A stretch of 64,000 nt of DNA from Meghimatium bilineatum. Lineage: Eukaryota > Mollusca > Gastropoda > Stylommatophora > Philomycidae. Below, in pieces: positions 6,401 through 57,700 of the stretch. The notes beneath the pieces are model-generated. The model did no database searches, was not told the origin of the DNA, and was given only the letters and a program-made list of their open reading frames with translations. Within the stretch, counting starts at the first letter, position 1. Each line of letters starts with the position of its first letter. The translations under genes were made by a program, and so were the position numbers. The stretch lies in assembly GCA_034231615.1 (NCBI GenBank), contig CM067315.1, positions 10,067,915 to 10,131,914 on the forward strand, given 5' to 3'.

Positions 6401-9400
6401 CAGTCGCAACGACTGTTGCCGGATGTGATGATTTTCGCACTACACACTGAGAGCCTCTCCTCCTGCATGCCGTTCACTGAGAGACCCACACATACCATCC
6501 TAAAATAAATATCTCAACCCAGAACCACTGATTGGTAATTATAGACCGATTAGACAAGGGAAATAATTTACTGGGAAAATTGCCCGAATTTTGTTTCGCT
6601 TCCAGCAAAAAAAGTAGATCCTTATTTAGGGATTGAACCAATAATTCTGATATACTGGCAAAGTTAGGTTTGTAAAAAAACATATACTGGGTAAAACAGC
6701 TGTTCTTAACATCGGCACAAATTGCTGACCACAAAATGGTAATTATTTGGAGATGACTTGGAGAACTATATTAATATTTGGAGATGACTTGGAGAACTAT
6801 ATTAATATTTGGAGATGACTTGGAGAACTATATTAATATTTGGAGATGATTTGGAGATCTATATTAATATTTGGAGATGACTTGGGAGATCTATATTAAT
6901 ATTTGGAGATGACTTGGAGAACTATATTAATATTTGGAGATGACTTGGAGAACTATATTAATATTTGGAGATGACTTGGGAGATCTATATTAATATTTGG
7001 AGATGACTTGGAGATCTATATTAATATTTGGAGATGACTTGGGAGATCTATATTAATATTTGGAGATCTATATTAATATTTGGAGATGACTTGGAGAACT
7101 ATATTAATATTTGGAGATGACTTGGGAGATCGTATTAATAATCATTGATAAAATTAGACTAATCTTTTAGGTTCTAGGAAGCCACATAAATTTCGTGAAA
7201 AAAAAAAAAAGGTTGAGAACCACTCATGTAAGTTTTTTTTTCTGTATGTAAGATCAAGGCTAACCATTTCATCATCAGTCATAATATTGTGTTGAGTGTA
7301 GACCTGCACGTAACATTTCTATGTTGTCTTTTACAATAGTCAAAGTAAATTAGGTTTTGGTGAGGAAGCACATTCAGTATTAATATGTTTTTGATATTAC
7401 TCCTCCATTGACAGCTTTGTTTATGAATTTATTTCAGAGTGTGGAAGCAATCCTGTTTGTATTCTCTTCTGTCTCAGAGAATGTTTCGCCCGATGAGCAG
7501 GTTCATGTTCCGAAATTGTTCTCTCAAATCATTGAAATTCCATTTGCAAACTCTCAGCAGATATCAACCGCACTTAACATGATAGGTAAGAACTTTTATT
7601 TTCAATATTATCATTATTAAATATTTCATCTAGGAAATACTTTTTATAATTGATTGTGTTATTGTACTGTATGGCTGTGAGAGTTGGACACTTCTTTTGC
7701 GTTTGTTCTCAAACTCCTGGAGATTAGCAGGTCCGGAGAAGGGAAAACAGTTTGCCATGATTTACAGCTCAGCTACGATATGCCTTTTGTCCTAACACAT
7801 TTAACTTCAGAATTGCTCATGGGTTACTTTGATCTACTATCGAATTGGACAGCATAAAACATGAGAAAAAACTCACATTATGAACAGTTTAAATCTCTTA
7901 ATATCAGAGGCTTTTATAGAAGGTCTGGAGAAGGGAAAACGATGTGCCATGATTTACAACTTAGCTGCGATATGTCTTTTGGTCTAACACACTTCTAGAT
8001 AGGTCTAGATCTGTCTTTATCACTTTCTCACACGTCCCGTATCACACACACACACACACAAACAAAACTTACACCAATATATGCAGAATTCAATTCTTTA
8101 TTTATATGTGCAAATGTTATTTAAATATCTCTAACAACAAAAAAGTTATCACGATTTCAAAACAGCCACCAACGATTACGTAACATGTCCAAAAACTAAT
8201 TCAGCGGCAGGAGAGAAATTACATAATTGTAAACACAGCATTCCTAAGGTAAACATATATGCATAAAACATCATGCGAAATGTACAAAAAGACCCACATT
8301 ATGAACAGCTTAATATCAGAGGCCATGCAATTTCAGAAATTAGGTAAATTACGTGTGCAGATGACACAGCCCTAATATCAAGAAGCCCTACAGACTTAGA
8401 ACACATGATTACGTTAAACATCTTAGTGAGGTTCAATATCTTTTCTTCAGATGATAAAAATAACACATATCAATAGAGATGGACACATTTTCTGCACCTA
8501 CAATAGGCATTGACAAATAACAACTAGAAAATGTCAACAACTTTGAATATATCAGGTCACCCATTAACATCAAATGAAATTGTTCAGCAGAGATTAGCAA
8601 TGGCCGACAAAAAACATGAAAAATCTGTGGCAAACACAGGCAAACACAATAACAAAGTCACAACTATTATCTCTATTTTTCCAGTGACAACATATAGTTG
8701 AGAGACTTGTTGCTTTATATTCCATTCTATTATACACTCTTGACAAATCTTGTCACTATTGTTTCATCACTATCTGAAGGTAGAAATTTATGATCAGTGC
8801 GACTGTGTCCACTGACCAGCTTCTAAACATCTTTTACAAATGTTGTTGGTATGTTAAGAAGAGAGAACAAACTAAGATGGCTGCTATCAGTATCATTGTA
8901 AGAGACTCACTATAGAAATCTGAATAATCTGTGGCCATCTGTCTTGGTAGTGAGATCAGCTGTGTTTAGACAAGAGTTAACCCAGAAGACTTGTGTGACA
9001 ATGTAGGAGTCAAGCAGCAAAAAAAAAAAAAAGAAAGTAACAAAGAAAATCCAGTGGCACATGCACTGGGTTATCATCTACAGGTTCTGGGCTCAAGTTA
9101 CAGAGCAATCACTCTTAAAGTCTGTACAAATGTATGTCCGACTTGCACATTTGGGAAAGATAAATACAGCAAAGAAGATCACTGATCATTCACTTTAAAA
9201 AACAGACTTAGTAATGTGTGGTAGGCTATACTTCTCACCACTATAGCATAATTATTCAATCTGGCTACCATCACCTTTTTAGTCTATGTTACTCCCTAAA
9301 AAATTTTAATAATTTCCCTTGAGAGTTTTATCATTCAATTATTTTGTGTTTTTTTAAATGTTAACTAAGATTCTTATTTTGTGTTTGCTGTTATTATTCT

Positions 9401-12400
9401 TTGTAGGGTCTTTCGCAGAATGGATGCAGTGGCATCCGGAGACGTTGAGCTATGTGTTGCCTCTTGTGCTACAGGGCATCAGGAACCCTGAGGTGGGCAC
9501 AGCAGCGACCATAGCATTGAAAGATATTACACGAGAAAACCTCTCAAATATACAAGTGTATGCACATCAGATACTAATGGCTTGTCAGGTTGTATAAACA
9601 GCGTTTGCAGCTGTGTTTATATTCTTTGTTATTTTCTGATGGTTTGTTATCGATTTGATATTTTTACTTTTGTTATGTGTATTTTGTGTGCTGTTCTTTT
9701 CTGAAATTGTTTTTGTGTTTATTTTGTATCATAATTTTCAGAAATTTTATGTTTATTTTGTGTCCATATATTATGAAATATTTTTTGAATGTGTTTGTTT
9801 TCTATTGTGTTTTTTGAAATTTGTGTTCTTTGTTTTTTTTTTTCTTTCTGTGCCAGTAATTTCTGTCTAGTATTTAGAACATATATTACTAAATAAATAA
9901 ATGTCACTGCTAACTTGCATTTTAAACATTTGTTTCTGCTTCATGAAGAGTTGAATTTAATCGTATACTTTTTTTATTTATTCCACAGAGCACATTTGAG
10001 GCCAATGTTTTAAAGGTATTATTATTCATCTTGATATAGTCATCCTTCCTTGTTTCATTTCATTATAAACATGGGATAAATTGAGCATTGTAAAACTTGC
10101 TTTAAATCATTAATGTGTTATAGCAGTGGGTGGTTTCAAAGTCTTCTTCTTCAGCGTTCATTCTCAAACTCCCGCTGGATCTCTGTCTTACTAGATTTCC
10201 AGCAGGATGTAGTCCAGAGAATGGAAATGCGTTGTGTCGCCGTTTTATTTGCACCAATGATCTGACACATCCGTCTTCGGCGAGGTTTCATAGTTTGATT
10301 TGCATGTTTGCTATTCTCATGATGTTACAAATATTCTACGTTAATATATGGCTCAGAAACATGGACAATGAACAAACAGCTAGAAGACAGAATTAAAGCC
10401 TTTGTTAATTGGATATAGAAGAATAGGGAGAATTTCTTGGAAATAGAAGAAAACAAACAAATGGTTTCTGACAACACTTCATGTGAAAAAGCATTATTGA
10501 AGAAAATAAAAGTCAAATACATAAGGCATTTTGAACATATTTAAAGACAGGACACCTTGTTGAAGATCTTACTTGAGGGTAGAGTTGAGGGGTAATCAGT
10601 GTAATCAGATTATATAGGAAATCCTTTTCAGCAAAATAATTATTAATTGTGATTCTGATGATGAGAAATTCTTGGGAATTACATTTGTTTTCAAAGTAGA
10701 TTTAATAACAGGTTGGTTTCATTATGAAATGACACACTGGACAAGCATGGACAGAATATATTGACATCATGGACTACAGACACTAGGCCTAGGCCTAGAG
10801 AACGATGGATCAAACAAGATTAGTGACATGTACATTTTATTTGTGTTTACAGGTGATATGATGTTAGTTTGGTTGTGAAACAACATAAATACAATAGGCC
10901 TAGATATGTAGAATAATTTTATGAACTAAAATAATAATTTTCAGACAAGTATAATGTTAGTAAAAAAAGATTTATCCAAATCCCCCCCCCCCCCCCCTTA
11001 AAAAAAAGTCTGTACAACGTTCAAATATATCATATACATACCAATAAAAAATACATCATTAAATTCAGTATTTAAACCTTTAATTCCATTTATAGCATGC
11101 CACAAATGGCCATGACACATAGACATAACGGTTATAAAGCCAGAGGCAGACCATGTAAAAGATGGATCACAGAAATCAAAGAAGCCACAGGAACAAGCTT
11201 ACAAACAGCGCACAAGAAGCTATCTCCAGAGAACTCTTCCACCCCTGACGCCGCACGGCAAACAAGGGACACAGCGTATAGATATAGAATTCCATTAAAA
11301 AAATATTGTAAAAAAAAAAATTAAACATATTCTTGTCTGCAGCAGGTCAACTTGCTCAGAATCCTCAAAGAAGAATGTTCTGAAAAGAATGTCATAAATT
11401 AATAAGTGATTTCACCAAATTAATAAGTGATTTCAACAAATTAATAAGTGATTTCACCAAAATAATAAATGGTTTCACCAAAATAATAAGTGATTTCACC
11501 AAATTAATAAGTGATTTCACCAAATTAATAAGTGATTTCACCAAAATAATAAATGATTTCACCAAATTAATAAGTGATTTCACCAAAATAATAAGTGATT
11601 TCACCAAAATAATAAGTGATTTCACCAAAATAATAAGTGATTTCACCAAAATAATAAGTGATTTCACCAAAATAATAAGTGATTTCAAGCAACCACATAG
11701 AATGTGAATCCAAATACACTAAAATGTCTGCTACAACTTTCGACATCTTTCTGTTTATCCATAGTCCAGAGACCTGCTTCGACTCATGTCCAGTGTCGGC
11801 CATGTTTTGTCTGTGATGCCTTCCAGTGAAATCATGCAGTACTTAGACGCAATGATAGTTCCTCACATGCAGCACTTGGACGCACTAGCAGCACTTGAAG
11901 TAAGTATCTTGTAAAATAACACCTCTTTTTTGTCCGTGATCAGAGTCCAATGCAGATATCAATAGTCATCCAACCGTGTACAGCCTCGTCGTGCAGTGTA
12001 GCAATAAACTTCAAACTCATTTGATCTGCAGTCATCCTTTGTAAGATACTCTATGAACGTTTCATAGATCTCATATTTGATCTGCAGTCATCCTTTGTAA
12101 GATACTCTATGAACGTTTCATAGATCTCATATTTGATCTGCAGTCATCCTTTGTAAGATACTCTATGAAGGTTTCGTAGATCTCATATTTGATCTGCAGT
12201 CATCCTTTGTAAGATACTCTATGAAGGTTTCGTAGATCTCATATTTGATCTGCAGTCATCCTTTGTAAGATACTCTATGAAGGTTTCGTAGATCTCATTT
12301 GAGTTTTTTTTACAGTTCTTCACCATATTCTCTTTGAGTTGGCCTCTTTGTGATCTCACTCTGTGGTATTTGATACCTGCATAATGGAACATGGGACATT

Positions 12401-14665
12401 CCCATAAGTGCTCCGCTCTCCATTCATCAGCTATCCAAGAGTATGTAGACTCAAAATCCAAGTCAGATGTTGATTATGAGATCTCTAACTGTCCAGAAAG
12501 TGTACACTTTCTCCCCTCGCCTTGTGGTTATCTTCATATCTATCATTCTGTGCATGTGTACATTATCACCTCCAGCATCATCACTCTGTAACAAATCAAT
12601 GATAGGCCTTATGTGGTCAGCCCTATCTCTCTTCAAAAATGTCAATTGCATTACGATTTTTTTCTTCTTTCATTCACTTGAAACATGTCTATATCTGTAA
12701 TTCTGTCTCCTTAATAAAACTCACTGTCTTTTGTAGTTCATACAGTGTCCCATAGAGCTTTGATTCCAGTGTTGTTTCCTCTGGCCAATATGTCTGCCTC
12801 AGCGTTTCATGTTCAGAACACTCTTGAAGTATATGTTTGGCACTCTGTGCTGCCTGTCCACATGTACATATGGCCGTATTGCCAATCTTGAACTTTGTAT
12901 ACATGTGGCTGCGGAGTCGGTTGTGTCCTGTTCTGAGGCGTAGAATTATAACTTGTTCTGATCTGTTCATAATGTGATAGTCATCTTGTGTTGGTGTTTG
13001 TGGCTTTCTTATTGACTTGATCATCTGTTTTTTTCTGATGGTAGGTGATTGGTACATCTGGTTGGTCTTCGGCAGCACCTTCCTTAGCCAGTTGGTCTGC
13101 TTTTTCATTTTCTGGTATTCCACAGTGAGAGGGAACCCACTGCATGGTTACCCTATACTGGTAAGACAATTCATTAAGTAGTTTTTGCAAGTCTTTTAGT
13201 TTTCCAGACTGGAGAGCTTGAAGCACTGACCTTGCTTCTGTCAGGAATACCACAGGCTGTAGGCCAGAGTTGGAGTTCAGCAGTTTTTTAATTGCCACAT
13301 TAATTGCCTGGATTTCTGCATCATAATTATTGCAGAATTTCCCTGTTGGTGTTCTGATTGTATCTTCATTACAATATTACTTATGTGGTCAGCCCTATAT
13401 CTCTTCAAAAATCTGAATGGCATTACGATATTACTTATGTGGAACACAAGCTCGACTAGCTTTCAGATTATAGGTTGATGGTACGAAAAAATACAAATAA
13501 CAGTATACAAGACATTTTCAATGTTTCAACTTTAAAGTCTTTTACAAGAAAATTCACGAATGAACAAATAGTAAAAATAATGGCACTATCACAAAAGTAT
13601 TCGACATCAGACATTTAGCAGCAGAGACATCCAAGGTAACGATAATTGCTGATATTGGACATGTTTCATATTATAATTGCTGATATTGTGAAGTGTTGAC
13701 AGCCTACAAAAATATTAGTATTCAACAGAAAATAATAGCATTTATTTTCTCACAAGAAACACATTGGAACAATATTATGTCATCTGTAAATAACCAATAC
13801 TTTGTATGGAAGCACATTGGCACATTCTTTTCAATTCATTGACTGTTTGCCTAAAAGAACCTAATATTGATGTGTTATATGACATTGTTGTCATGTTATT
13901 AGTAAATGTTACAAAATTAGTTAAGCAGTGTTGCCATGCTTTGAGCAAGAGTTTGAAAAATTTTTCTTTGTGTATGCTGTCTTCTTCTTCTTTAGCGTTC
14001 ATTCTCAAACTCCCACTGGTTCTCTCTTGTAGCAGGATAATAGTCCTCTAGATTTCCAGCAGGATGTAATCCAGAGAATGAAAATGTGTTTGTCACCAAT
14101 ATATTTTGTGACAAATGCCTGACACATCCATCTTCCTCGGTCTTTGTGTATATATGAATGTCATATATATCTTTGTGTGTGTGTGTGTGTATATATATAT
14201 ATAATTTGTATTTGTCCAGCCGTGTCCATCTAACCGAGCCGATGTTCATACTACTGTCAACATCTTTGCCTGGCTGTTTGGATCATTAGATACTGAAGTT
14301 GAAGGTGGGGATGAGGAAGAGCAGCAACATCACCAGCATAGGAGACAGCAACAGCAAGACCCAGCTGATCCAAAGCCTGTGAGCATTTTCATCAAAGTTA
14401 ATTATTCATTTATTTCCATATTCTCTGATTCTCTCTTTATAATTTATGATATAGTTGGTTGTCATTATACATTATTTTCAATATATCACACAAATTCATC
14501 TGGAAAAAAGTTCTAAAGTATTCACGAATATACCCACAAATTCATGTTAATATTCTATATTCCATGGGTGAGGCCATATTGGAATGATGTATCAAAGATG
14601 AGCTTTTAGTAATACTATCACTGAAATCTCATATAAAATGTGACTAACGACAATTGGTCACCAAG

Positions 14666-14731
<66 letters not shown>

Positions 14732-17700
14732 AATTTCAAAAATCATTAAATGTAGTCAGCAAAATGTTAATACGAGGTGTATTCAAATGAAACCTGACAC
14801 TGTCGTTACCTATGCCAGCACGCGTGGAATTTAAGAACGTCATCACTGATGTAATAAGTACACATCAATGAACAAAAGGTCAGGTGGTCATTCTCTTTGT
14901 ATGCTTAGTGCCCTGTGCAGGCAGCCGTCAACATGGCTGGTGTGATAACAAATCCTTCCAGATGTGACTACAAAGTGATTCAGTTTCTTGCAGCTGTAGT
15001 ATATCAAACCAACCAACATTCAACAAACAATACAAATGGTGTATGGTGGAAAATGTGTTTCTGAGACAGCAAAGGATTGGGCAAGAATATTTTGGGAAGA
15101 AAGGATCTTCCACGGCCAGTTCTGGCATGCGTCGTTGTGACGGAAGATGCCATTACCAAGATGAATGCAACGATAGTGTTGACCCTTGCTGGAGTTTGTG
15201 TTCACTGGCTAATGAATTCTCTGTGTCATTAGGAACAGTTCAAATGATTATAAGAAACTGAAGTATCAAAAGTAGTGTTTTTAATGACACAGTTATTGAC
15301 TGAACATCATAAAGAAGAATGAATGGGGTAGAGTTTGAATCATTTGCAGTATTACTATGCTGAGGATGATATATTTTTGTCACAAATACTTGCACATGAC
15401 GAAGCATGGTGTTACCAATTTGAGCCATGCAGCAAAGCATCCAGCATGAAATTGAAACATCCTGGATCACCAAACAGCACAAAATCAGAAATTTCTTCAG
15501 AAAAGGTTATACTTACCGTAGGGATCCGTGTATAAACTGAGAATTTTCGGAGAAAAATCAGAAATTGATTTAGGGGTCTCGGCTTATAAACAAGCACAGC
15601 CAAATTTTAAAAAAAAATTACATCAAAAATCAGTAACGGGGAAAAAATTTACCAGTTTAAAAAAAGCCCCCCAAAAACCTGGGACTTGCATGTTTTTGTC
15701 GATTCATACAGGTAATGTGAGTGGGGCAAATGAAAGGAATGCTCTTGTATCTTACAGTTGCTAAAGTTTGTGTTAATTTCCATTTAACATGTCCGTTCAT
15801 TCTTATGATGATGAAGTTCATTATTACCAGCATTGTTACGTTGTGTTTTCGGTCTATAGTCGGATCTATGACATTCCACTGCATGACACTGCTCTCTTGC
15901 ATATCGCAAAAGTTGGATCTTCTGTCATAACACATCTGACCTGGCCACAAAAGATCAATTGTTACCTGTCGCCTTTCCTGAAATATTCTTGCCCAATCCG
16001 TCACTGTTGTCTTCGAAAAACATTTTCCATCATACATGGTCGAACATATTGAGAGACAGCAAGTAAAATGGTTTGGTCACCTTATGAGAATGAAGCCAAA
16101 CGAAATACCAATAAGAGCATATAATACAAGAATATCCGGGCGTAAAGCCAAAGGTAGACCAAGAAAACGGTGGATAGAAAACATCAAGATAGCCTTGAAC
16201 AAACATGGACTAAATGCAACCTTGGCGACACATCTGGCCTTGAAACGACAGTTTAAGCTCCCACCCCTACGCTTAACGGCAAGTGTGAATGCGATCAACA
16301 ATCATTCACCTGGGGAAAGACAATAGACATGGTCTGCGATCTTTGTTGAATGGTGGTTGGTCGACATACTTCAGCTGTAAGAAACTGAGTCCCTGCTGGT
16401 TGGTCAAATTTTGAAGGATTAATCATTACACTGGCCATGTTGTTGACTGCCAGCACAGGGCACTAAACATACAAAGAGAATGACCATGTGACCATTCGTT
16501 CATTGATGTGTACATATTACATTAATGATAGCGTCTTCACACTTCTCACGTGTTGGCATAAGTGGTCCAGCCCGGGCGGGTTTCATTTGAGCACATCTTA
16601 TACATCACTTTTTGAGATATAATAATGAACAAAAATATGTGAAGTAAATTGTTACCAATAGTAAAAATGACAAATTAAGAATAAATATAAAACACATGTT
16701 CAGGTGACATTTCGATAAAGTGTTACCAATAATAATAATATAAAACTAACAATGGAACACAATAGTAAAAATGACAAACTAAAAATAGAACACAATAGTA
16801 AAAATGATAAATTATCAATGAAATACAATTGTAAAAATGACAAACTAACAATGGAACACAAGTTCAGGAGATTTTTCTATTAATCCATCAGAATGAAACA
16901 CAATGGACAAACAACGATGAGCCTAAATGGGAAGTTCTTAGTGTGTCATTTTTACTATTGGTAATATTTTAGTGTACATATTTCCCCACATACTCACATT
17001 GTTCTGTTACCACAGCCCCATATATTTTCAGCTTGATGGATTAACCTCTACACTCCTGTGGTTTATCTTTGGGACTGATAACACAGTTTGTTTGTTTGAG
17101 AACCTCAGGAATTATGAGCGATTAGCTCTTACTTCCTATTTGCAATGGGGAGGTTTCTGAGCTTTCTTTCATACCCAGGAGACTTCCCTGATAACACAGT
17201 ATTTAGTAATGTTTTCTTTCCTTGGTATTTATGATAATGTTCTTCTTCTTCAGCGTTCATTCTCAATCTCCCGCTGGATATCTCTTGTAACAGGACAATG
17301 GTCCTACTATATTTCCAGCAGGATGTAGTCCAGAGAATGGAAATGCGTTGTGTCGCCGTTTTATTTGTGCCAATGGCCATCCGTCTTCGGCGGGTGATAA
17401 TGTTCTAAATCTAGATAAATGTTCAACATCTAGATAATGTTCTAAATCTAGATAAATATTCAACATCTAGATAATGTTCTAAATCTAGATAATTGTTCAA
17501 CATCTAGATAATGTTCAACATTTAGATCATGTTAAACATCTAGATAATGAACTGTTCATATTATTTCTGCCCAGATTTTCGTGATACTTCAAAAGATATA
17601 CCCATCTGTACAGAAACTAGCGTATGCTTGGATATTTGATACGGGTATAATTGAGGTAAGTGTGAAATTGACTTGCATAAAAATAATTCTACATATAACA

Positions 17701-20700
17701 GCTCTCATGAACTGGAAACAAAAATTGTGAAAAGATGATTTTTAGTTGTGACATTATTGCAGGTTAGAAAAATGTAAGTTAGGTAGATAATAATGATATC
17801 TGTGCATATCTCTGTAAGACATCTGTGCATTCCATTTTGATCAACCAGAAATGCAGAAACACTAGAGGGGCTGCCAATGTCCCTATATGAATAGATCCTA
17901 CTAAGTTATAGTGATCCTATGAGTACACATTGAGGGCGGTGTTGTGTATGTGAATCGATATAGTGGTAACGAAGCGCTGTTCACGCTCGAGAACACACAA
18001 AAACCCACTTGTCCCACTACAATTGACCTCATTCAAAGTAGGAAGCATGACTCAAGTATTGGATACGCCAATTTGAACATGCACTCCTGTGTATGGAACA
18101 AAGCTTTGACTACAGCTCCCCATTGCATACAGGACAAGCATTGAACAAATGTCAGGGAGCACATTGTTAAAATTTCCCACTGAAGCAGTGTTCTGACTCT
18201 GGACAATGTAGAAGTGGGAGCAAGTCCTTTGTCATTGAAAACACTGCAGACCTATCCCAACTTGAAGTATAAAGTCATCATACATAGACCAGCACTTGAT
18301 GTATATAATCATCATACATAGACCAGCACTTGAAGTATAAAGTCATTATACATAGACCAGCACTTGAAGTATAAAGTCATCATACATAGACCAGCACTTG
18401 AAGTATAAAGTCATCATACATAGACCAGCACTTGAAGTATAAAGTCATCATACATAGACCAGCACTTGAAGTATAAAGTCATCATACATAGACCAGCACT
18501 TGAAGTATATAGTCATCATACATAGACCAGCACTTGAAGTATAAAGTCATCATACATAGACCAGCACTTGAAGTATAAAGTCATCATACATAGACCAGCA
18601 CTTGAAGTATAAAGTCATCATACATAGACCAGCACTTGAAGTATAAAGTCATCATACATAGACCAGCACTTGAAGTATAAAGTCATCATACATAGACCAG
18701 CACTTGAAGTATAAAGTCATCATACATAGACCAGCACTTGAAGTATAAAGTCATCATACATAGACCAACACTTGAAGTATAAAGTCATCATACATAGACC
18801 AGCACTTGAAGTATAAAGTCATCATACATAGACCAACACTTGAAGTATAAAGTCATCATACATAGACCAGCACTTGAAGTATAAAGTCATCATACATAGA
18901 CCAGCACTTGAAGTATAAAGTCATCATACATAGACCAGCACTTGAAGTATAAAGTCATCATACATAGACCAGCACTTGAAGTATAAAGTCATCATACATA
19001 GACCAGCACTTGAAGTATAAAGTCATCATACATAGACCAGCACTTGAAGTATAAAGTCATCATACATAGACCAGCACTTGAAGTATAAAGTCATCATACA
19101 TAGACCAACACTTGAAGTATAAAGTCATCATACATAGACCAACACTTGAAGTATAAAGTCATCATACATAGACCAGCACTTGAAGTATAAAGTCATCATA
19201 CATAGACCAACACTTGAAGTATAAAGTCATCATACATAGACCAGCACTTGAAGTATAAAGTCATCATACATAGACCAGCACTTGAAGTATATAAAGAGAT
19301 CGCCCACAACATTTCCATTTAATTAAGAAACTGAAGTAGATGGACAGATTTTTGCTCTTGAAATACGCAGTTATTAGTTCTACTATCAGCGTTGGAGTTG
19401 TGTTAGTTTTATTTTATATTAGCGAATATGTTCATTTTCTGAGATGTTGTCTCTCTATGCTTCAGCTGTAACATTACTGTGTTATGAACATTATAGGCAG
19501 TCTGTGATCTCTACAAGAAAGCACTACAAAAGCTAGACAACGATTTTGCTCCATTATCAGGGGATTTAACTCAGCTAGTCATCAATTTATACCAGAGATC
19601 TCCAAGCACAGCAATTATTGATCTATGCAAACAGGCAAGTTAATGTGTGTTTTTAAGGACAATCAAGACAAGGTTATGATAGCTATAAACAATTTCATGA
19701 GCATCTATGACTGATTTCATTCTTACATATACAAGACAATGATGAACATTCCTTCTTATTTAGAAAATATTTATGAGTCAAAGTGTTACAACTATTTTAA
19801 ACGGTACAATTATAATTACACTTCCATCATAATTTTTCATGATTGTTTAAACCATCCCATAAAATGAACAATCGCTTTCACAATTAGCGTATACATTGTT
19901 TATCTTATATATCATATATATATATTCTTCTTCTGCGTTCAGCATCTGTGGTTATGCTATACCATCAGGCCTGTTGTCAAGGCGAATTCCACTGTCTTCT
20001 CCAGGTCAGAGCGGCTGCCCCATAGCTTTTGCCTCAAGTCTGTATCCTCTGGCCAGTTCTTCTGTCTCTGCTCTTTGTATGTTGGGCAGTCCTGAAGTAT
20101 GTGTTTTGGGGTCTGGGTTCCAGATCCACATGGACATTCATCTGTGTATGAGATCCTTAATTGGTAAAGGTTACCCAACAGTCTGCAGTGGTCTGTTCTA
20201 AGGCGAAATATTGTGGTCTGTTGATATTATTGGAGGAGCTGTATTGCATTATGTTAGTTTTCCCCTTCTATTTGTTTCTTCCACTTTGCTGTGTATGTGT
20301 TGTGGATTATTGTTTTTACTTCTCTGTAAGACAGTGGGTTCTGTGTTGCTCCATTTCGCTTCCTGCCTTTGACAGAGCATCCGCTTTCTCATTTCCCATT
20401 ATTCCACAGTGTGATGGTATCCACTGAAGGGCAATAGCTGATGATTTTCGGATCTGTCTTAGCTCATGTCTGATGTTGTGCAGAAGGCTTTCATTTCTGT
20501 TGCTCTGGATTGATTCCAGTAGGGATCTGCAATCTGTGAATATGGCTATCTTCTTTGGTCTTGGCAGTCCTGGTTCGGTGAATGCTTTCAGTGCTTGATG
20601 GAGTGCAACTGCTTCTGCTCTAAAGTTGGAAGAGTATTTCCTGATTGGAAAAGCTTTTTTGTCTTCCCATCTTTGAGTCTTATAAAAATTCCACCTCCTC

Positions 20701-23700
20701 CATTCCTTACTGTTCCTTCTGCCGATCCGTCTGTGTATACATGTGTCCATTCCTTGGTATTGTATTTTATTTCTATCATCTCCAGTGTCAATGCTTTTAG
20801 TTGAGGTGGAGTTTGGTATTCCTTATTAATTATTCCAGGAACCTGTGTTATTATGGAGACATTTTGGAGACTATTCCTTTTGTATGATGTACTGCAGTAC
20901 TCTTTTATCCTCTAATGAAAACAATATAGATATTAATGTAGCTGTAGCATACTTTGTTCTGAGTTATGCTTTTCATAATCTGATATCTTTTCTTTCAGTT
21001 GCTTTTGATATTTGGTCTTCAAGAAAACTTTATTCCATTCTCAGAAGCAATTGTGAACAGTGTTTGCTCCAGGTCGTTAGAGATGTTCAATGTTGGTAAG
21101 CCATTATTCTTATGTTGTGGTGATAAAATACACTGCACCATACTAAGCATGGGATATACATGTGACAGCGTGGGATATACAAGTGTCAGCGTGGGATATA
21201 AGAGTGACAGCGTGGGATATAAAAGTGACAATGTGGGATATACAAGTGACAGCGTGGGATATACAAGTGACAGCGTGGGATATACAAGTGACAGCGTGGG
21301 ATATAAAAGTGACAGCGTGGGATATAAAAGTGACAATGTGGGATATACAAGTGACAGCGTGGGATATACATGTGACAGCGTGGGATATACATGTGACAGC
21401 GTGGGATATACAAGTGACAGCGTGGGATATAAAAGTGACAGCGGGGGATATAAAAGTGACAGCGTGGGATATAAAAGTGACAGCGTGGGATATAAAAGTG
21501 ACTATGTGGGATATAAAAGTGACAGCGTGGGATATAAAAGTGACAGCGTGGGATATAAAAGTGACAGCTTGGGATATAAAAGTGACATCTTGGGATATAA
21601 AAGTGACAGCGTGGGATATAAAAGTGACAATGTGGGATATAAAAGTGACAGCGTGGGATATAAAAGTGACAGCTTGGGATATAAAAGTGACAGCGTGGGA
21701 TATAAAAGTGACAGCGGGGGATATACATGTGACAGCGTGGGATATACAAGTGACAGCGTGGGATATAAAAGTGACAGCGTGGGATATAAAAGTGACAGCT
21801 TGGGATATAAAAGTGACAGCGTGGGATATAAAAGTGACAGCGTGGGATATAAAAGTGACAGCTTCGGATATAAAAGTGACAGCGTGGGATATAAAAGTGA
21901 CAATGTGGGATATAAAAGTGACAGCGTGGGATATAAAAGTGACAGCTTGGGATATAAAAGTGACAGCGGGGGATATAAAAGTGACAGCATGGGATATACA
22001 AGTGACAGCATGGGATATACAAGTGACAGCATGGGATATACAAGTGACAGCATGGGATATACAAGTGACAGCATGGGATATACAAGTGACAGCTTGGGAT
22101 ATAAAAGTGACAGCATGGGATATAAAAGTGACAGCATGGGATATACAAGTGACAGCATGGGATATAAAAGTGACAATGTGGGATATAAAAGTGACAATGT
22201 GGGATATAAAAGTGACAGCATGGGATATAAAAGTGACAGCATGGGATATACAAGTGACAGCATGGGATATAAAAGTGACAGCATGGGATATACAAGTGAC
22301 AGCATGGGATATACAAGTGACAGCATGGGATATAAAAGTGACAATGTGGGATATAAAAGTGACAATGTGGGATATAAAAGTGACAGCATGGGATATAAAA
22401 GTGACAGCATGGGATATACAAGTGACAGCATGGGATATAAAAGTGACAGCATGGGATATACAAGTGACAGCATGGGATATACAAGTGACAGCATGGGATA
22501 TAAAAGTGACAGCTTGGGATATAAAAGTGACAGCGTGGGATATAAAAGTGACAATGTGGGATATAAAAGTGACAGCGTGGGATATAAAAGTGACAGCTTG
22601 GGATATAAAAGTGACAGCATGGGATATAAAAGTGACAGCATGGGATATAAAAGTGACAGCATGGGATATAAAAGTGACAGCATGGGATATACAAGTGACA
22701 GCATGGGATATACAAGTGACAGCATGGGATATAAAAGTGACAGCATGGGATATACAAGTGACAGCATGGGATATACAAGTGACAGCATGGGATATAAAAG
22801 TGACAGCGTGGGATATAAAAGTGACAGCTTGGGATATAAAAGTGACAGCATGGGATATAAAAGTGACAGCATGGGATATAAAAGTGACAGCATGGGATAT
22901 ACAAGTGACAGCATGGGATATACAAGTGACAGCATGGGATATACAAGTGACAGCATGGGATATACAAGTGACAGCATGGGATATACAAGTGACAGCATGG
23001 GATATACAAGTGACAGCATGGGATATAAAAGTGACAGCGTGGGATATACAAGTGACAGCATGGGATATACAAGTGACAGCATGGGATATAAAAGTGACAG
23101 CATGGGATATACAAGTGACAGCATGGGATATAAAAGTGACAGCATGGGATATAAAAGTGACAGCATGGGATATACAAGTGACAGCTTGGGATATAAAAGT
23201 GACAGATTGGGATATAAAAGTGACTGAGTGTACAAAAACCTCTCTTCTATGCAGATTTCTTTTTAAATTGCTGTTATATCTAAGCAAGACTCCTTTCTGT
23301 TCAACATTTCTTTCTATGCAACAATCTTATCTTGCAACATTTCTTTCTATGCAACAATCTTATCTTGCAACACTTCTTTCTATGCAACCATCTTATCTTG
23401 CAACAATTTTTCTATGCAACCATCTTATCTTGAGGTTATCTATTGTGGTTAGCGTATTCCTGACGACAGAGTGATGCCAAATTTAGTTCCAACCTGTAGG
23501 ATCTGTGTTTTTTGTTCTTAGTTGATTATAAGAGGGGTGTAAATCATTCAAAGTTTGTTCCGACTTGTTAAGAATCCGAATTGCCAGTGCATAATCCACC
23601 ACCAAACCCCGGTACAAAAGAAATATGAGGTAAATAGTAACATCTAAACAAATTACAAACAAGTTTAAAATGAGAATTATAAAATGTTGCATCTATTCTG

Positions 23701-26700
23701 TATTAATATATGGCACAAAATATGGACACTAAACAAACAATTAGAAGACAGAATTTATTTATTTGAGTTGTGAATATACAGAAAAATAGGGAGAACATCA
23801 TGGAAAGAGAAGTAAAACATATACAGAGGTTCTAACACTTTCATATGAAGATAGAATTATTAAAGAAAATAAAGATCAGGCAAATAAAATATTTTGGTCA
23901 CATTAGAAGAACTGATGCCTTTGAGATGTGGGTATATAGAATAATAGGCAGAAAGAACATCATGGAAAGAGAAGAAAACAAACAAAGAGGTTCTAAAATC
24001 ACTTAATATGAAGAATGAATTATTAAGTGAAATAATGATCAGGCAAATAAAATATTTAGGCACATTAAAAGACATGACACCTTGTTGAAGACCTTACTTG
24101 AGGGTAAAGTAAAAGAGCAAGAGGTAGGCAGATATACAAGTGGGAGAGTAACATCACAAGATGGACAGGTTACAATCTAGCAGAGTGCACCACCAAGACA
24201 AGAGACGGGATGTTGGAGGTCTCTTGCAGCCAACCTTCATTGTGGAGACGGCACTTGATGATGATGATGATATATATGCAACCATCTTTTCTATGCAACA
24301 CATCTTTCTATTCAATATTTCTTTCTATGCAGTCATCTTTTTTTATGCAACCATTGTTTCTATACACCCATCTTTTATATGCAACATTTTTTTTAATAAC
24401 AAAATGTTGTTACAACAGAAATGACTTGTGTACGTAGAATTATCGGAATAACAGTAAGAGACAGAATCAGAAATGAAAACATAAGACTAACAAACACATT
24501 GGCAAACCTGGATTACATCAGAAAACAGGCAACATATTAAGTGATTTTCACGTTTCCAGGCTACTATGAGATAGTGCCCCTCAAAAAGCATTGCTATATA
24601 GACATATTGAATACAAAACCAGGGGTAGACCACGCAAAAGATGGATTACAGAAATCAACGAAAACAAACATATATGAAGCACATAAAAAAAGGTTGTCTC
24701 CAGAGAACTCTCTTACCCATGATACTGCAAGGCATAAACAGGTATAAAGCAAAAAGACAAAAAAAAAACTGTAAGCAACTTTAATTTCTATTCATTATTC
24801 CTTTCCTAGATATCTTTTCTATGCAACGCTTCTTTTATGTAGTTTCCTTAGCAACATATCCTCATATTTAACTCTCATGTCTACATAACCATTCATACTT
24901 TTTATCTTTTTATTCCCTACAATCCATCTTTTCCCTGCAATCAGTTTTCCCTACAATCCATGCCACTGCCCGGCGACTGAAAAGCTCTGATCTAGAAGTC
25001 CTAAGTGTTAGTCATGATGTGAGAGTTGTGTTAAATGTGGTCTGAGTTTGGAATCAACTACAAAATTATAACTTTTTTTTTTTAAATCACAGGTATGCGA
25101 AATTTTACAGATGTTATTGAAGGATTCATGTGCTTCCTTGCTCAGGTAAGTTTACCTCTAAGTTTACTTCCTTAATGATATAATTGTTTGTTGTCTACAA
25201 TGTGGTGTAGAGCTGATCCAGAGAAAATGCTGACAAACTCTTAATGACTGGATGCCCCTTGAGTAATTTAGCATACTTTTATTGACCAGATGCCCCTTGA
25301 GTAATTTAGCATACTTTTATTGACCAGATGCCCCTTGAGTAATTTAGCATACTTTTATTGACCAGATGCCCCTTGAGTAATTTAGCATACTTTTATTGAC
25401 CAGATGCCCCTTGAGTAATTTAGCATACTTTTATTGACCAGATGCCCCTTGAGTAATTTAGCATACTTTTATTGACCAGATGCCCCTTGAGTAATTTAGC
25501 ATACTTTTATTGACCAGATGCCCCTTGAGTAATTTAGCATACTTTTATTGACCAGATGCCCCTTGAGTAATTTAGCATACTTTTATTGACCAGATGCCCC
25601 TTGAGTAATTTAGCATACTTTTATTGACCAGATGCCCCTTGAGTAATTTAGCATACTTTTATTGACCAGATGCCCCTTGAGTAATTTAGCATACTTTTAT
25701 TGACCAGATGCCCCTTGAGTAATTTAGCATACTTTTATTGACCAGATGCCCCTTGAGTAATTTAGCATACTTTTATTGACCAGATGCCCCTTGAGTAATT
25801 TAGCATACTTTTATTGACCAGATGCCCCTTGAGTAATTTAGCATACTTTTATTGACCAGATGCCCCTTGAGTAATTTAGCATACTTTTATTGACCAGATG
25901 CCCCTTGAGTAATTTAGCAAACTCTTAATGACCAGATGTCCCTTGAGTAATTTAACAGATTTGAAGTGAACTGAATAAATATTCCTTGAGTTCTTTTGTT
26001 TTTATAGATATTTACATAATATTTTTACATGTAAACAAAGAATTGAATACTGCATATATTGGTGTAAGTTTTGTTAGTGCATGTGTGATACAAAATGCGT
26101 GGGAATGTTGCAAAGATGGGAAAGGGGGGAGATTTTTTTAATTGCAAAAATAAATTATTTTAAAATTCTGTACCTTTATTTTTCGAAGTGGCAACCCTGA
26201 TAACAGACTTTTTTCACAACAACGTCTAGGCCCTTATTGTTTTTATTGTATTTTCACAGCTACTCTAACATAATATTGCTGGAGAAATCAATAAAACATG
26301 TAGATTTAACTTATTATGCCGAAAAAATTGTTTTCTGGATATAGACCTAGTCTTGGTCGGGAATTGCGTTGATGCATTAGCTCTGTGCTTGCTACACGTA
26401 TCATAATGAAATGAAACGGTTTCAGCCACCAACACTTTGAAAATATTATATGTCATAAACAAACGAAATACACCTACCTGACTGACGTTAATGGCTAGGC
26501 CTAGAAGTCCCACAACTTCAGAAAAGTCGTCTTGCCTGACATGACTAAAATTTGTATGTCCGTGATTGCTAAATTCTCCTTCAAACATGTCCTACATGCT
26601 GCCTCTAAACACAGAACTAGTAGGTCTATATATTCCCAGTCATAGCGAGTAATTGAGCAAAATTTATGCCCAATAATTCCTCATCGTCAGAATCTGAATC

Positions 26701-29700
26701 CATAAAGTTTTGGAAAAGATTTTTTGATGTCACTCGATTTCTTTCAAGTAAAGCTGAAACTATCTGTCTATATTACACCGTACTTCAACACAAATACAAG
26801 TCTAAATGACGTATGTCTAACATAAATTGCACCATGTGACATTAACACTCATATGGTTATAACTTTGTTAAGTAGGGGACTAACAAATGTTGTATGGACT
26901 TAATCATGGCTGCAAATAACGGGGACAGATTTGGTGTATCCAAATGACCATGGCGTGCTGAAGGCTAAAGGGGAGTTGGAGTTAGGTTTTTACAACGATA
27001 ATGCTTTTTATATTTAAAGGTTTAACTGCCTTTTAGGCTTTAGATACCTAACACCTCTAGAAATGGTCACAGTCAATGTTCACAGGGAGACTGCTCCAAA
27101 AGAACCCATATTTTCCTTGAGTAATTGAACAAACTGGAAATTACCCGATTGAATATCTCTTACATTCCAGGTGATGAAAAAATTGAAAAAAATTATAGTC
27201 CGGTGCAACTGTGACCTTACAGCCATCTTCCAAGCAGGTAAATCTCTCATCATGTTTCTATCACCTTCTTTAATTTCTACCATCATTTAATTTCTACTGT
27301 ATTGTTCTTCTATTTTCATTTTATCACTTTTATTTATCAAACATTATTCCCCCATTCTCTTCTGCTTTTCTAGAAGACTAGAAAATATTTAACTAGAAAA
27401 TAATTGCTGTGAGAATAATTTTACATGCAGATTTTGTGTTTCTATCTCCAAGAATTACCAACAATAGAGCTCTAGTAACCTTTCTGTGCGATGGTGTATG
27501 TAGCTCCATAGCGTTATTTCATAACACCCACAAAGGCTTCAACTCTCAACTTTAAGAAAAAGCCTCCTACTTAGAGGAGGTAAAAATATACTATTATAGT
27601 TGTAGTGGGGCATCCACAAGAGTAAAACCTCACACTATATGTTTGTCATCTGCTATTAGAGAAAAACCTCACACTATATGTTTGTCATCTACTAGATCAA
27701 TTGGTGTGGTCATTCTTCTTCTACATTTGTTCTCAAACTCCTGCAGATTAGCAGGATGTAGTCTTGAGGATAGAATATATGGTCACTTTGACCCTATATG
27801 AGATGGGATAGGCAGCTCCACCCCATAACCTCCTTAGTTGCCTCTTATGACATGCATGGAAGATAAACAGTTTTGGATACTGTCCTTTTAGATGCCAATA
27901 CATAGTCAGGTTATTTCCCTTGTTTGTCTATGTCAATTTCATAGTTTCAAGTCATAATTCTTCGCGGACCACATAGTATGTACATTCATAGTTTCAAGTC
28001 ATAATTCTTCGCGGACCACATAGTATGTACATTCACGTGTAAAACAGGTAATGAAGTCCTACTGAATGATGACTAAAATACTACACACTATCACTAACGG
28101 ATGTAAATATGGTACATATAACAAGACAAAACACAGAATATAATCAACAGATGACAATACACAGGACAAAGTCGACGTTTCGAACCAATAGACCTTTTTC
28201 AAGATACGGACATAACATACAAACATAAAAAAACCACAAGTAAAAATGAATGCGTATCCGAGTATGTACATTCATAGTTTCAAGTCATAATTCTTCGCAG
28301 ACCCCATAGTATGTACATTCATAGTTTCAAGTCATAATTCTTCGCGGATCCCATAGTATGTACATTCATAGTTTAAAATCTTAATTCCCATGTGGATCTT
28401 TTCAAATTACTCACTTTGTAGAAAAAAAGACATCACAAGCCTGATTCAAACTGGAGACATCATGAGCCTATGGCATACAGAATAAATAACCATTATACCA
28501 GGGAGATGCCTTTCCATTCAAGTATCCAGAAGTTGTGAGCATTGCAAGGGAAGTTCAGTCATTCTGAGAGTATTCAGAAGTTGTGAGCATTGCAAGGGAA
28601 GTTCAGTCATTCTGAGAGTATTCAGAAGTTGTGAGCATTGCAGGGGAAGTTCAGTCATTCTGAGAGTATTCAGAAGTTGTGAGCATTGCAAGGGAAGTTC
28701 AGTCATTCTGAGAGTATTCAGAAGTTGTGATCATTGCAAGAGTTCAGTCATTCTGAGAGTATTCAGAAGTTGTGAGCATTGCAAGGGAAGTTCAGTCATT
28801 CTGAGAGTATTCAGAAGTTGTGAGCATTGCAGGGGAAGTTCAGTCATTCTGAGAGTATTCAGAAGTTGTGAGCATTGCAAGGGAAGTTCAGTCATTCTGA
28901 GAGTATTCAGAAGTTGTGATCATTGCAAGAGTTCAGTCATTCTGAGAGTATTCAGAAGTTGTGAGCATTGCAAGGGAAGTTCAGTCATTCTGAGAGTATT
29001 CAGAAGTTGTGAGCATTGCAAGGGAAGTTCAGTCATTCTGAGAGTATTCAGAAGTTGTGAGCATTGCAAGGGAAGTTCAGTCATTCTGAGAGTATTCAGA
29101 AGTTGTGATCATTGCAAGAGTTCAGTCATTCTGAGAGTATTCAGAAGTTGTGAGCATTGCAAGGGAAGTTCAGTCATTCTGAGAGTATTCAGAAGTTGTG
29201 AGCATTGCAGGGGAAGTTCAGTCATTCTGAGAGTATTCAGAAGTTGTGAGCATTGCAAGGGAAGTTCAGTCATTCTGAGAGTATTCAGAAGTTGTGATCA
29301 TTGCAAGAGTTCAGTCATTCTGAGAGTATTCAGAAGTTGTGAGCATTGCAGGGGAAGTTCAGTCATTCTGAGAGTATTCAGAAGTTGTGATCATTGCAAG
29401 AGTTCAGTCATTCTGAGAGTATTCAGAAGTTGTGAGCATTGCAGGGGAAGTTCAGTCATTCTGAGAGTATTCAGAAGTTGTGAGCATTGCAAGGGAAGTT
29501 CAGTCATTCTGAGAGTATTCAGAAGTTGTGAGCATTGCAAGGGAAGTTCAGTTATTCTAAGATTTACTTTCTTAGTAGTTTCTTATATTGCTCCACTTAT
29601 TATGTCATCTGTTTTCTCGTTCAAATGTTAAAATTGGATTGTATTTGATTATTTAATTTCATTTATTGTAATTTATTTTTTGTTAACAGCTGTACTGAGT

Positions 29701-32700: not shown

Positions 32701-35700
32701 CACTGAAGTTAGGCCCATACAGTATGGCTTGCAAACATGTAGAGCTCAAATAAATTATGACAGAGTATTTATATTGCTGCGAACAATTCAGGTACAACTG
32801 CTCTAGCAAATAGATATAAAAGCATGATAGGAAATAATTATGTGAGATTGTTGTCCATGACTACAAATGGCTACCTCAGTGGTGACACTTGGCGACTTTG
32901 GGTGTCTATGGAAAGAATAAACAGGTCAACATCGGTTTTCTCAAGGTTTAAGCAGCTGTGACAGCTGGTATGTTAAAGCGATTGCCTTTTGGCACCTCAT
33001 CACAATTTCTCTATGAATTTTGCTGTCTTTTGTAAAAATGCTTCCTAGATATTTAAATTCTTATTTAAATAATTTAAATTCTAAGTCTGTTTTAGTTTTG
33101 TGCCTCTAACATACATATTTAGCTGTTTCTGTTTTTGCTGTCTTTAATTTCATATTGTATTGTTCGCATGCTGTTCTGTATTGAATGTAGGATATGATTT
33201 ATTAAATATCTTTGTGTTTAAGTATAGATAATTGGATTGGTTTTATTTCTCCAAACAGATTGAGTTCCTGAATGCAGGTGCAGAAAATGAAGTAATTAAG
33301 AACATTGTTATCAACCATGGTCATATCCTGGTAGATAGGATTCTGAGAGTGAGTTTATGTGTTGAAGTTACATATCCTGGTAGATAGGATTCTGAGAGTG
33401 AGTTTATGTGTTGAAGTTACATATCCTGGTAGATAGGATTCTGAGAGTGAGTTTATTTGTTGAAGTTACATATCCTGGTAGATAGGATTCTGAGAGTGAG
33501 TTTATTTATTGAAGTTACATATCCTGGTAGATAGGATTCTGAGAGTGAGTTTATGTGTTGAAGTTACATATCCTGGTAGATAGGATTCTGAGAGTGAGTT
33601 TATGTGTTGAAGTTACATATCCTGGTAGATAGGATTCTGAGAGTGAGTTTATTTGTTGAAGTTACATATCCTGGTAGATAGGATTCTGAGAGTGAGTTTA
33701 TTTATTGAAGTTACATATCCTGGTAGATAGGATTCTGAGAGTGAGTTTATGTGTTGAAGTTACATATCCTGGTAGATAGGATTCTGAGAGTGAGTTTATG
33801 TGTTGAAGTTACATATCCTGGTAGATAGGATTCTGAGAGTGAGTTTATGTGTTGAAGTTACATATCCTGGTAGATAGGATTCTGAGAGTGAGTTTATGTG
33901 TTGAAGTTACATATCCTGGTAGATAGGATTCTGAGAGTGAGTTTATGTGTTGAAGTTACATATCCTGGTAGATAGGATTCTGAGAGTGAGTTTATATGTT
34001 GAAGTTACATATCCTGGTAGATAGGATTCTGAGAGTGAGTTTATGTGTATAAGTTACATATCGTGGTAGATAAGATTCAGCGTTCATTCTCATACTCCTA
34101 CTGGATCTCTCCTGTAGCACAACAATGGCCCTACTAGATTCAGCAGGAAGTCCAGAGAATGGAAATGCGTTGTCGCCATTTTATTTGCACCAATTGTCCA
34201 ACACATTAGATTTCAACAGGGACTATAATATATTTTCTTTCTTTTTTATGATAAAGGTTGAATAGTTTTTAATAAATCGAATATTTAATTAGTTGAATCA
34301 ACGCTATTGTTTTTGGGTGTTGGTAGCTCAGTGGCTAGTGTGCTGGCATCCTAGGCCAAACCACACAAGTTTGCGATGCTTCACCGCTGCCATGAGATGT
34401 TCTTGTTGGATTTTAGGGGGGGAGGTGATGGTGATTTTGGGTGTTGATAGCTCAGTGGCTTGTGTGCTGTGTGTTGGTGACTCGGTGGTTAGTGTGCTGG
34501 CATCCTAGTTTGGGGTGTTGGTAGCTCATTGGCTAGTGTGTGGGCATCCTAGTTCGGTGACTCAAGGTTCAATTTCCATTTCAATTAGAAATATTTTAAA
34601 AATCATCATGGCTCTTATGTCAACCCGGCCTAAGGAAATGGGTACCAGTTCTCCTGGAAAAGTAATGGCATAGGGCATGATGTTGACCACTTCATCTCTA
34701 GGTATATGATAAATATGGGTCTGTTACAATGGAATCCCGTTATAACAACTTGGTCTGGACAACAAAATATGTTTAACAGAAATTCGATATATGCAGTACA
34801 AACAATATAGAATAAATATAATTTCGGATTTTCAAAAGTGTTGTTATATAAGGGGAAATATGTTATAAAAAATGCAATATACAGGGATTCCTCGGTACCA
34901 TATTCCCCAATATGCCTCAATGTGGAAAAGGAAACTTTACAATTGTGTTATTGTATGTGTGTGTGTGCATGCATGCGTACATAAATATATAAACATATAT
35001 AAATATATACATTATACTTGATTATTGTGAATGGCAGGCTGTTGGAGGTGAGTCACAGAGAGGTATCATAGAGTATATAGCTGATGTGGTTATGGCCTTG
35101 AACAAGCACTACATGTCCCAGCTTGCGGTGTGGCTGAAAATTATGGTAGACAACGATGGATACCCATCCCCCAGGGCATCCAAACAAGACAAGGAGAACT
35201 TTGTTAAAAATCTTCTAAGGTAATCATTTGATATTTTTCTGCTACTAATCTACAATCCTTCAGTGCTAAATACAGTGCATAGGGCAGAAACCAATGTTCT
35301 CCAGTTAGATCCATGTGATGCAACTGTGTGTAGTTCTTATGTGTTGTTGAGAACCAGTCAATACCCTCTTTGATGGTTGCAAAGAGTTTCTCTGCCCTCT
35401 TTCTTTTGACATCTGGAACATATTTTAATGCTTGTAATGGTAATCTGTTTTTATTCACTCTAAGTACATGTCCAATATTTAAGACCACCATTTTCTTCTT
35501 ATTGTTGTAGAAACATATTGCTGTTCGTATTCTCGTATTTGCTTGTTTTACTTTCATTCTTCCCAGTCAATATTTAAGATCTTCTAAGACATTTATTTAC
35601 AATTGAATTTTTTTCTCCAGTGCTTTTCTCTTTACTTTCCAGCCTTTACAATCATATGTTAATACAAATATTATATAAAGTTAAACAGTCGTAGTTTGGT

Positions 35701-54736: not shown

Positions 54737-57700
54737 TGGTTTTTTTAAATTTCCAAATGTTTGTTAGGTATTTGAAATCACTTGACGCCAATACAATTCT
54801 GGTAGAAATCTCTTTTGTTGCATCTCCATATTATATTTCTGCCTAAATATAGGACAAATTATCAACTGTATGGGTCCCATACTTAACTGGAAATATGTAT
54901 CACAGACTGAAAACAACAAATATACTGGGTCGTCACATGAGAATACTTACAGTCTGTGGATTCAGTTTTCCAGTCATCAAGTCAAACAAGTCACTATCAG
55001 CAATAATGATTGTTGTGTCAGCTTTGTCTGTGGAAAGATCATTTAGATGCAAAATTAAATACAATCTTATCTTTGTTTTTCTATTCTGCCATCTTGTATC
55101 CCAGTTACACAGTTTGCAAGCTATTACAGTGGAATCCTATTATAACAACTTGGTCTGGATTCACTAAATATGTATGTAATAACAGAAATTCGCTATATAC
55201 AGTACAAACAATATAGCATAAATATAATTGGGGATTGTAAAAAGTGTTGTTATAAAAGGAAATTTGTTATAAAACAATGCGCTATAGAGAGATTCCACTG
55301 TATTAGTATCAATAACAGTAAAACTTCTGTTTAACCTGTAGCAGCCCAGCTAAAAATAATGCATGCTTCCTCTGACACCCGGCCATTTCTTATGACTTCT
55401 GGTTTTTCTGTACGCATTTGTTTTTTTGGCGTAATATTTTTTATTTATGGAGTTATTAATTTCAAATTCAGAGACAATAGAGATAAATGGATGCTATGAT
55501 TTGGAGGTGTTATTTGCTTGTGTGTGTCAGTATTATGTTGTGTACAACCAAAATTGAGAATGTGGAAAACCCACACAAAGAACTTACTGCATTAAGGTCA
55601 CGGGTAGGACTAGCTGAAAAGAACACAGCTTCTCAAATTCCTCATTGTAAATTATGTCAATATTAAATATTATAAACATCTCTCTCAAACACCATACATT
55701 GATCTACAGTAACTGAAATACTAAAGCTTTAAAATTCGTCCTTTTCTGAACCATATTTATGAAGAATTCGTGAAAAATGGCAACACTATAGTTAGATATA
55801 GAAAGTTTGAATAAATTACGACTACATATTTATATCGCTGCAAAAAAACTAAGGAATAATCACTCTAGCACACACTTACTATAAGAGCATTATGGGAAAT
55901 AAACATGGACGTTTGTTGTCCATGACTACAAATAGCTACCTCAATGTAGACATTTGTCGACAGTGGGTTCCTATCGCTAGATTACATTTGCGGATATTTG
56001 TAGACTTCAGATTTCTACAGGTTACATTATTTAGGGGACATCTTCTGCATACATACTCAAACTCGAATTAGTAGATGCAGTCTGGAGAATGGAATGTGTT
56101 GTATCATAGTTTACAGCATTGCTACAATATCTGTACCTTTCAACCTGACTTCAGCACGGCGTCTGGGTCAATTTGTTGTATATGAGATGAGACAAGGCAA
56201 CTCCACATCATAACCTCCTTGGTCGTTCCTTATGACATGAATGGAAAATAAAATGCTGCTATTCTTTGTTCTCCAGCAACACATGGCCATCAGGTAACAT
56301 ATTTTGGATAAATGGTAGTGTTTTTTTAAGGACACTGAACTTATCACATGTTGACTTGAAACAAATCTAAATACTCTGAAATGCCTCTTGTTCATGGTCA
56401 TTCTTATTGGCCCTTTACCAGTAACCATGATACATTTTTCCAAGATGTTTATGTCTCTTTATATGGCCAAAAACCATCAGCTTTCTTGTTATAAAGTTGT
56501 TTAGTGGCTAACTCTCTTCCATATTTAATATTCTTAAAATTTATACAAGAAGTTATGTATGCTCATTGGTTGTACATACTGACCCTTCATTTCTGCCTCA
56601 TACAACAATGCACGTTCCACAATTGCAGTTTGTATAATTAACAACACATATTCTCTATTTTAACACTTTCCTGACTAATTTCGACGCTAGTCGAATTTCC
56701 GTTACAGAACCTTGCTGACCAAGTTCGACACTAGTCGAATGCGCTATGATAGATCAGAAAAATGGGAATGCCCATTGCAATAATGTGCTAAAAATAATGT
56801 TTTCGGGAAATTATGTTCTGTAAAAATGGCGACACGTCGGGAATAATAATATAGACATCGTAGATGATTTTTTATCAAGAAATATTGGAGATTTTGAAGG
56901 AAATATTGTATGATATATAGAAATTAATGTAAATCTAGGCCTAGCATTATGATAAGTAGCATTTTGCACTTGAAATAACTCTGGAGCTTTCAAATTCATT
57001 CAGAAAGGGCAAACAGTCGTTACAACGCATAGAAAGTTTCAAGGCTTTCTTGCGCTAGATCGATTTTATACTAAATTTTAAAGACGGCGATGTCAATGTT
57101 TGCATACACCCTCGGTAATGGTGGACAAGTACGCTCTGATTTGCTGGTGAGCAAAGAGTTAAGAAAGTGTACATACCATTAGAATTAAATTTCACGCTGC
57201 CATTTCCATTCTTGACATCCACAACCCAAACACCTTCTTGATCTCCTGGTCCTTTCACTTTGAAACTGAGCACACCATTGATCTTTTTCACAATATTGGC
57301 ACCATCCTAAAATATTCCCAATAAAAATTGTTCGTTAACACATTGTATTTAACACATTGAAGTGTGGATTTGACAAGTGTCACATGATTTATTTTAAATA
57401 CAATTGAATATAAAAATCTATGCATGCATAGTGATCAACTGAAATCATGGTTGCCAAGTTAGCCTTTTAAAAGCCTATTTTCAGAACATTTGAAATATGT
57501 GTATATATGATACATTAACCATTTGGCCATTAGTCGCTTCTATTGGTTGAACACTAGAATCTTCAAGAGTTGGTTTTTTTTCTTTACTTGTTATGCTAAG
57601 ATCCATATTCTATTTTGAATCTGCCCAGGGTTAATTTAAAACTGCAATCTTCGCATAGTTCATCCTTTCTTTTGTGTTTACATTGTAAGAATATCACAGA

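Follow-up and report, generated by a model that had tools for sequence, protein, structure and literature searches.

A minisatellite spanning an exon-intron boundary of the importin-13 gene in Meghimatium bilineatum

Introduction

How does a gene manage when its own 5' splice site stands in many tandem copies in front of a single acceptor? The question is raised by the importin-13 gene (IPO13) of the gastropod Meghimatium bilineatum, located in a stretch of 64,000 nucleotides that we analysed as a whole (the window; contig CM067315.1 of assembly GCA_034231615.1, positions 10,067,915 to 10,131,914, forward strand). A sequence-only reading had claimed that a real IPO13 donor was amplified there about fifteenfold, which held up. 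It had offered two outcomes, a length-dependent switch toward nonsense-mediated decay (NMD) of the message, or an array that is tolerated because the first donor wins. With a probability of roughly three in four, we regard the array as a "mirage"-type minisatellite at an exon-intron boundary that is tolerated and nearly neutral, and where the first donor would be the one mostly used.

The term mirage is used in amphioxus for a minisatellite-like array that spans an exon-intron boundary, and such arrays were reported not to disturb splicing. The cases are Adh3, the globins BflGb6 and BflGb9, and troponin C, and similar imperfect repeats were described in PGBD5 (PMC3087553, PMC3902484).

Results

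The array was detected by Tandem Repeats Finder (TRF) on the forward strand with a period of 49, 15.4 copies, 98% matches and a score of 1437. By direct reading, the full units, 15 in number, span 33322-34056. Each of them consists of 27 bases from the end of the exon and 22 bases from the start of the intron, beginning with GTGAGT. The unit length of 49 bp in the sequence-only reading was therefore right, but its division into 25 and 24 bases was not; likewise, an array is present, but its limits are 33322 and 34078 and not the proposed 33259 and 34065, the first of which is the start of the exon. The exon part of the unit amounts to nine in-frame codons, HILVDRILR, and its 27 bases occur in the window exactly 15 times on the forward strand and not at all on the reverse strand. 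The intron-derived 22 bases are identical or nearly identical to the true intron start. The tandem units span an authentic exon-intron boundary, and the border AGA/GTGAGT with its donor is present in all 15 full units and absent from the partial copy that follows them. The features of the locus are:

33259-33348, forward strand: IPO13 exon of 30 codons, preceded by AG and followed by GTGAGT; matches importin-13 when joined to the next exon; its last 27 bases are the exon part of repeat unit 1
33322-34078, forward strand: minisatellite of 49-bp units, 15 full units and a partial copy of 22 bp (TRF and direct reading)
33349-33354, forward strand: authentic 5' splice site GTGAGT, copy 1 of 15 (direct reading)
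33385-33387, forward strand: TAG that is read in frame with any of donors 2-15 (frame reading)
34057-34078, forward strand: degenerate partial unit at the intron-side edge, without a donor, with 2 differences in 22 bases
34076-34206, forward strand: copy of a dispersed repeat adjoining the intron-side end of the array
35038-35219, forward strand: next IPO13 exon, matching importin-13, whose acceptor side closes the array-bearing intron

The exon at the array is genuine importin-13. When the exons 33259-33348 and 35038-35219 were joined, they matched the solved importin-13 structure 2x19_B (E 3.9e-13) and also a chain named Cadmus, 2x1g_F (E 4.5e-5), which we take to be fly importin-13. The Pfam domain Importin_rep_3 crossed the junction between 33348 and 35038 (E 1.6e-15), and a transportin-3/importin-13 domain (Pfam, E 1.2e-8) was found in the exon near 9400. 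In total, 14 exons were mapped on the forward strand between 6102 and 38259; the mapping covers the exons from 6102 on, and further upstream exons were not sought. Joined, they form a single open frame of 533 codons plus the stop. All 14 are preceded by AG, and the 13 donors comprise 12 GT and one GC. The identity to the human sequence is 37-39% in the two longest exons and 64% in the last one. The IPO13 introns are 1.2-4.0 kb long, and the G+C content is 36.5%.

The non-GT donor of the gene, CAG/GCAAGT at 19635-19640, follows the exon 19497-19634. The joined protein also gave an SDH_protease match, which was rejected as chance because its 15.8 bits are below the cut-off of 31.3.

We then compared the units with each other. 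Nine of the 15 full units are identical, one change is common to units 3 and 7 and two are common to units 4 and 8. A four-unit pattern thus recurs, units 5-8 mirroring units 1-4, and units 14, 15 and the partial copy carry private changes. In this one allele the interior units are alike and the intron-side edge is variant. All differences among the full units are confined to the unit positions 38-43, which belong to the intron-derived part. Because the events are few and the two differences of the partial copy both lie within the exon-derived part, constraint on the internal units is not claimed. The exon-derived piece of the repeat can be aligned to the coding sequence of importin-13, and we therefore take the exon as the source of the repeat and the intron as the recipient. 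Of the earlier proposal that the array grew from the exon into the intron, the exon as the origin was retained; the direction of growth is not measured by the variant pattern, where the private variants at the intron end and the repeated four-unit pattern point to block duplication and to an intron-side edge that was not homogenised. The viral_contigs collection contained no exact match to 20 bases of the unit, a result without information value when the gene is that of an animal.

Copies that are 98% alike and a repeated four-unit pattern could also arise if a tandem region was collapsed or expanded in the assembly, and an amphioxus mirage was reported to be aberrantly assembled in a draft genome (PMC3087553). 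However, the IPO13 array starts within coding sequence of an exon, borders on a dispersed repeat copy at its end and shows distinct variants at its edge, and many other arrays with different units are present in the window. We consider an assembly artefact, in the array as such or in the number of its copies, very improbable, and a wrong copy number would leave the anatomy unchanged.

The dispersed repeat is about 130 bp long and was found at seven places, 216 (reverse strand), 10142, 13982, 17240, 34076, 42900 and 51408. The copies at 216 and 51408 are short, and two copies touch minisatellites. No target-site duplication was seen by eye around 34076-34206. A minisatellite at 17396-17549 adjoins a copy of this element at one end; at the other end it stops 25 bp upstream of the IPO13 exon 17575-17655 and covers the usual branch-point region.

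The authentic donor is followed by 14 further donors in steps of 49 bp, the last at 34035-34040, and all 15 are identical as the 9-mer AGA/GTGAGT. Frame reading bore out that a TAG stands about 13 codons past the true donor and that the use of any downstream donor adds a premature stop: the in-frame TAG at 33385 is the 13th codon, and it enters the message with each of the 14 downstream donors, 192-829 nt upstream of the last exon junction. The exon would then grow from 90 to 139-776 nt. The earlier argument that 49 is not a multiple of three led to the correct outcome but was not needed, since the TAG precedes donor 2; donors 4, 7, 10 and 13, which add a multiple of three, hit the stop as well. 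Because all 14 other donors lead to this stop, the gene can only work if a sufficient share of its transcripts is spliced at the first donor.

The same arrangement gives rise to another explanation, a length-dependent switch where donors 2-15 would sometimes be used, the TAG at 33385 would lead to NMD and the array length would tune the importin-13 output. What the sequence offers for a possible decay switch is only the stop, common to the 14 downstream donors, and their equality with the first donor. By the usual rule of 50-55 nt, the distance of the stop from the last junction is in the range of NMD. Against a switch, an exon of 139-776 nt in place of the normal 90 nt would run against exon definition, and no sign of selection was seen on the units past the first.

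The donor copies were also compared for strength and accessibility. With a scoring matrix all 15 copies score 6.92. The predicted accessibility of the 9-base donor was highest at copy 1 (0.020 versus 0.003-0.013) but tiny throughout. Compared with shuffled sequences, the RNA folding of one unit was not better, with a z of -0.06; two units gave a z of -1.23 and the other strand one of -1.28. No clear structural selector among the donor copies was observed in the predicted RNA accessibility.

AG dinucleotides occur inside the exon-derived piece of the units, and according to a model proposed in print for the mirages of amphioxus globins, a small exon is recruited from an internal piece of exon origin (PMC3087553). 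The corresponding idea that the IPO13 array supplies material from which a new intron or exon could form is extremely improbable. The units are without a good polypyrimidine tract, as judged by eye, the recruited piece would be only 10 or 14 nt long, and stops occur in all three forward frames of the array. In addition, the idea concerns future evolution and not present function.

To place the array among the others of the gene, we considered all arrays of at least 90 bp in the mapped IPO13 span. They are 14 in number and fill 23% of it, and they contain only one of the 26 splice sites and 27 of the 1598 exon bases. With random placement, at most one splice site was hit in 1.8% of the trials, and at most one array touched a splice site in 5.9% (mean 3.4). 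This test omitted the arrays 9711-9779, 14668-14729, 24913-24961 and 27619-27694 and the two-copy rows at 34441-34554, and its exon starts at 7438, 9407 and 38151 are one base off the final exon set. The avoidance of splice sites fits a loss of arrays where they harm exons, and the boundary array would have been kept because its exon stays intact. Thus, IPO13 tolerates many intronic arrays, and the sole array that overlaps an exon can leave this exon intact.

Near-copies of the 24-base borders were searched on the forward strand, ungapped and within 4 kb. An exact copy (24/24) was found for one of the 26 borders, which is that of the array, and the other 25 scored 14-18 of 24. Of 60 random positions taken as controls, 41 lay outside arrays, with scores of 13-18, and 19 lay inside arrays, with scores of 19-24. 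No second boundary array was found among the 26 borders in the mapped part of IPO13.

Of the 13 intronic arrays other than the boundary array, 6 had an edge no more than 130 bp away from an intron end, with 1.9 expected (P 0.009). At cut-offs of 60, 100 and 200 bp, the P values were 0.24, 0.05 and 0.045. As 130 bp is one of four cut-offs that were tried, a clustering of arrays near splice sites was not relied on.

The window is very dense in minisatellites, with 62 TRF rows and array lengths reaching 2 kb (99 copies of a 21-bp unit at 21146-23224). At 12019-12298, a 56-bp unit is present in five copies with 99% matches. They start 119 bp inside the intron that follows the exon ending at 11899, and they overlap an open frame of 84 codons on the reverse strand (12222-12473) without a Pfam match. 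Two further open stretches on the reverse strand, 54936-55136 and 57058-57306, match the SCP2 sterol-transfer domain (Pfam PF02036).

Discussion

The array may have originated from a tandem duplication that covered the final 27 bases of the exon together with the first 22 bases of the intron, and the duplicate may then have expanded to 15 copies by slippage or unequal exchange. Since the extra copies are all on the intron side, splicing at the first donor would excise the entire array and leave the protein unchanged. A tolerated array is favoured by the frame across the first donor, which is the one matching importin-13. It is also favoured by the layout of the variants, which lie in the intron-derived part, are private at the last two units and recur over four units, as in ordinary array turnover. 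Use of downstream donors at a low level, with NMD of the product, is compatible with this explanation.

Several points weigh against the tolerated array. The intron-proximal one of two comparable donors was reported to be preferred, and the footprint of U1 was given as 35 nt (PMC6002489). The spacing of 49 bases is larger than this footprint, which would allow simultaneous binding to all copies. Human IFI6 uses two of its downstream repeat units as donors (PMC4526556), and both reports speak at the same time for the switch. The array donor is weak for this gene, since 10 of the 12 other IPO13 donors compared, including that at 27237, score higher with the scoring matrix, and even an unrelated intronic GT at 34424 scores 7.26 versus 6.92. 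When only the 6-base intron part was considered, the accessibility at copy 1 was 0.030 and not the highest (range 0.019-0.074). Donor choices of this type were reported to be shifted in opposite directions by SRSF1 and hnRNP A1 (PMC5585400).

The amphioxus mirages, however, are reported to splice normally (PMC3087553, PMC3902484), and tolerance because the first donor wins appears to fit these published cases better than a switch does. Taken together, we hold the length-dependent switch to be unlikely. It is quite unlikely that we deal with a mirage outside the lancelets where fifteen identical donors compete for one acceptor and the array length sets the share of importin-13 messages that is lost by NMD.

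The phenomenon itself is already in print, as mirages in amphioxus and as a donor-providing minisatellite in man. The latter, in IFI6 (6-16), was reportedly treated by Turri et al. in 1995. Like the amphioxus mirages, the IPO13 array consists of minisatellite-like repeats that span a boundary and copy splice signals; its interior units are alike and its edge is diverged, as in BflGb6, and the reported unit lengths of the Adh3 mirage, 10-72 bp, include 49 bp. It differs in the gene, in its 15 nearly identical units and in being known from the sequence of one allele. BflGb6 is described as repeating the acceptor border in units of 150-160 bp, whereas the IPO13 array repeats the donor border in units of 49 bp (PMC3087553, PMC3902484). 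In IFI6, the use of the two downstream units is reported to result in three mRNAs (PMC4526556), whereas in IPO13 any downstream donor would bring the stop.

Minisatellite expansion, in some cases at exon-intron boundaries, was reported for human segmental-duplication genes (PMC2812944). There the repeats alter exons or introns of recent paralogues, whereas splicing at the first donor would leave the IPO13 exon as it is. Intron gain by tandem genomic duplication (PMC4974935) likewise involves an intragenic tandem duplication that affects splicing, but the IPO13 array enlarges an existing intron and no new intron was seen. An earthworm metallothionein gene has intronic minisatellites, and the passages on it describe no boundary array. 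A literature search for IPO13 together with minisatellite found no report.

The IPO13 locus offers a clean and long boundary minisatellite, in which 15 identical donors at a distance of 49 bases face one acceptor and an unambiguous stop follows unless the first donor is used. This makes it a naturally occurring substrate on which to ask how one among several equal 5' splice sites gets chosen, and from the reported intron-proximal preference a dead message would be predicted here. If the donors do compete and the array length sets the share of messages lost by NMD, the array would test, in nature and in graded form, the choice that the spliceosome makes among equal donors.
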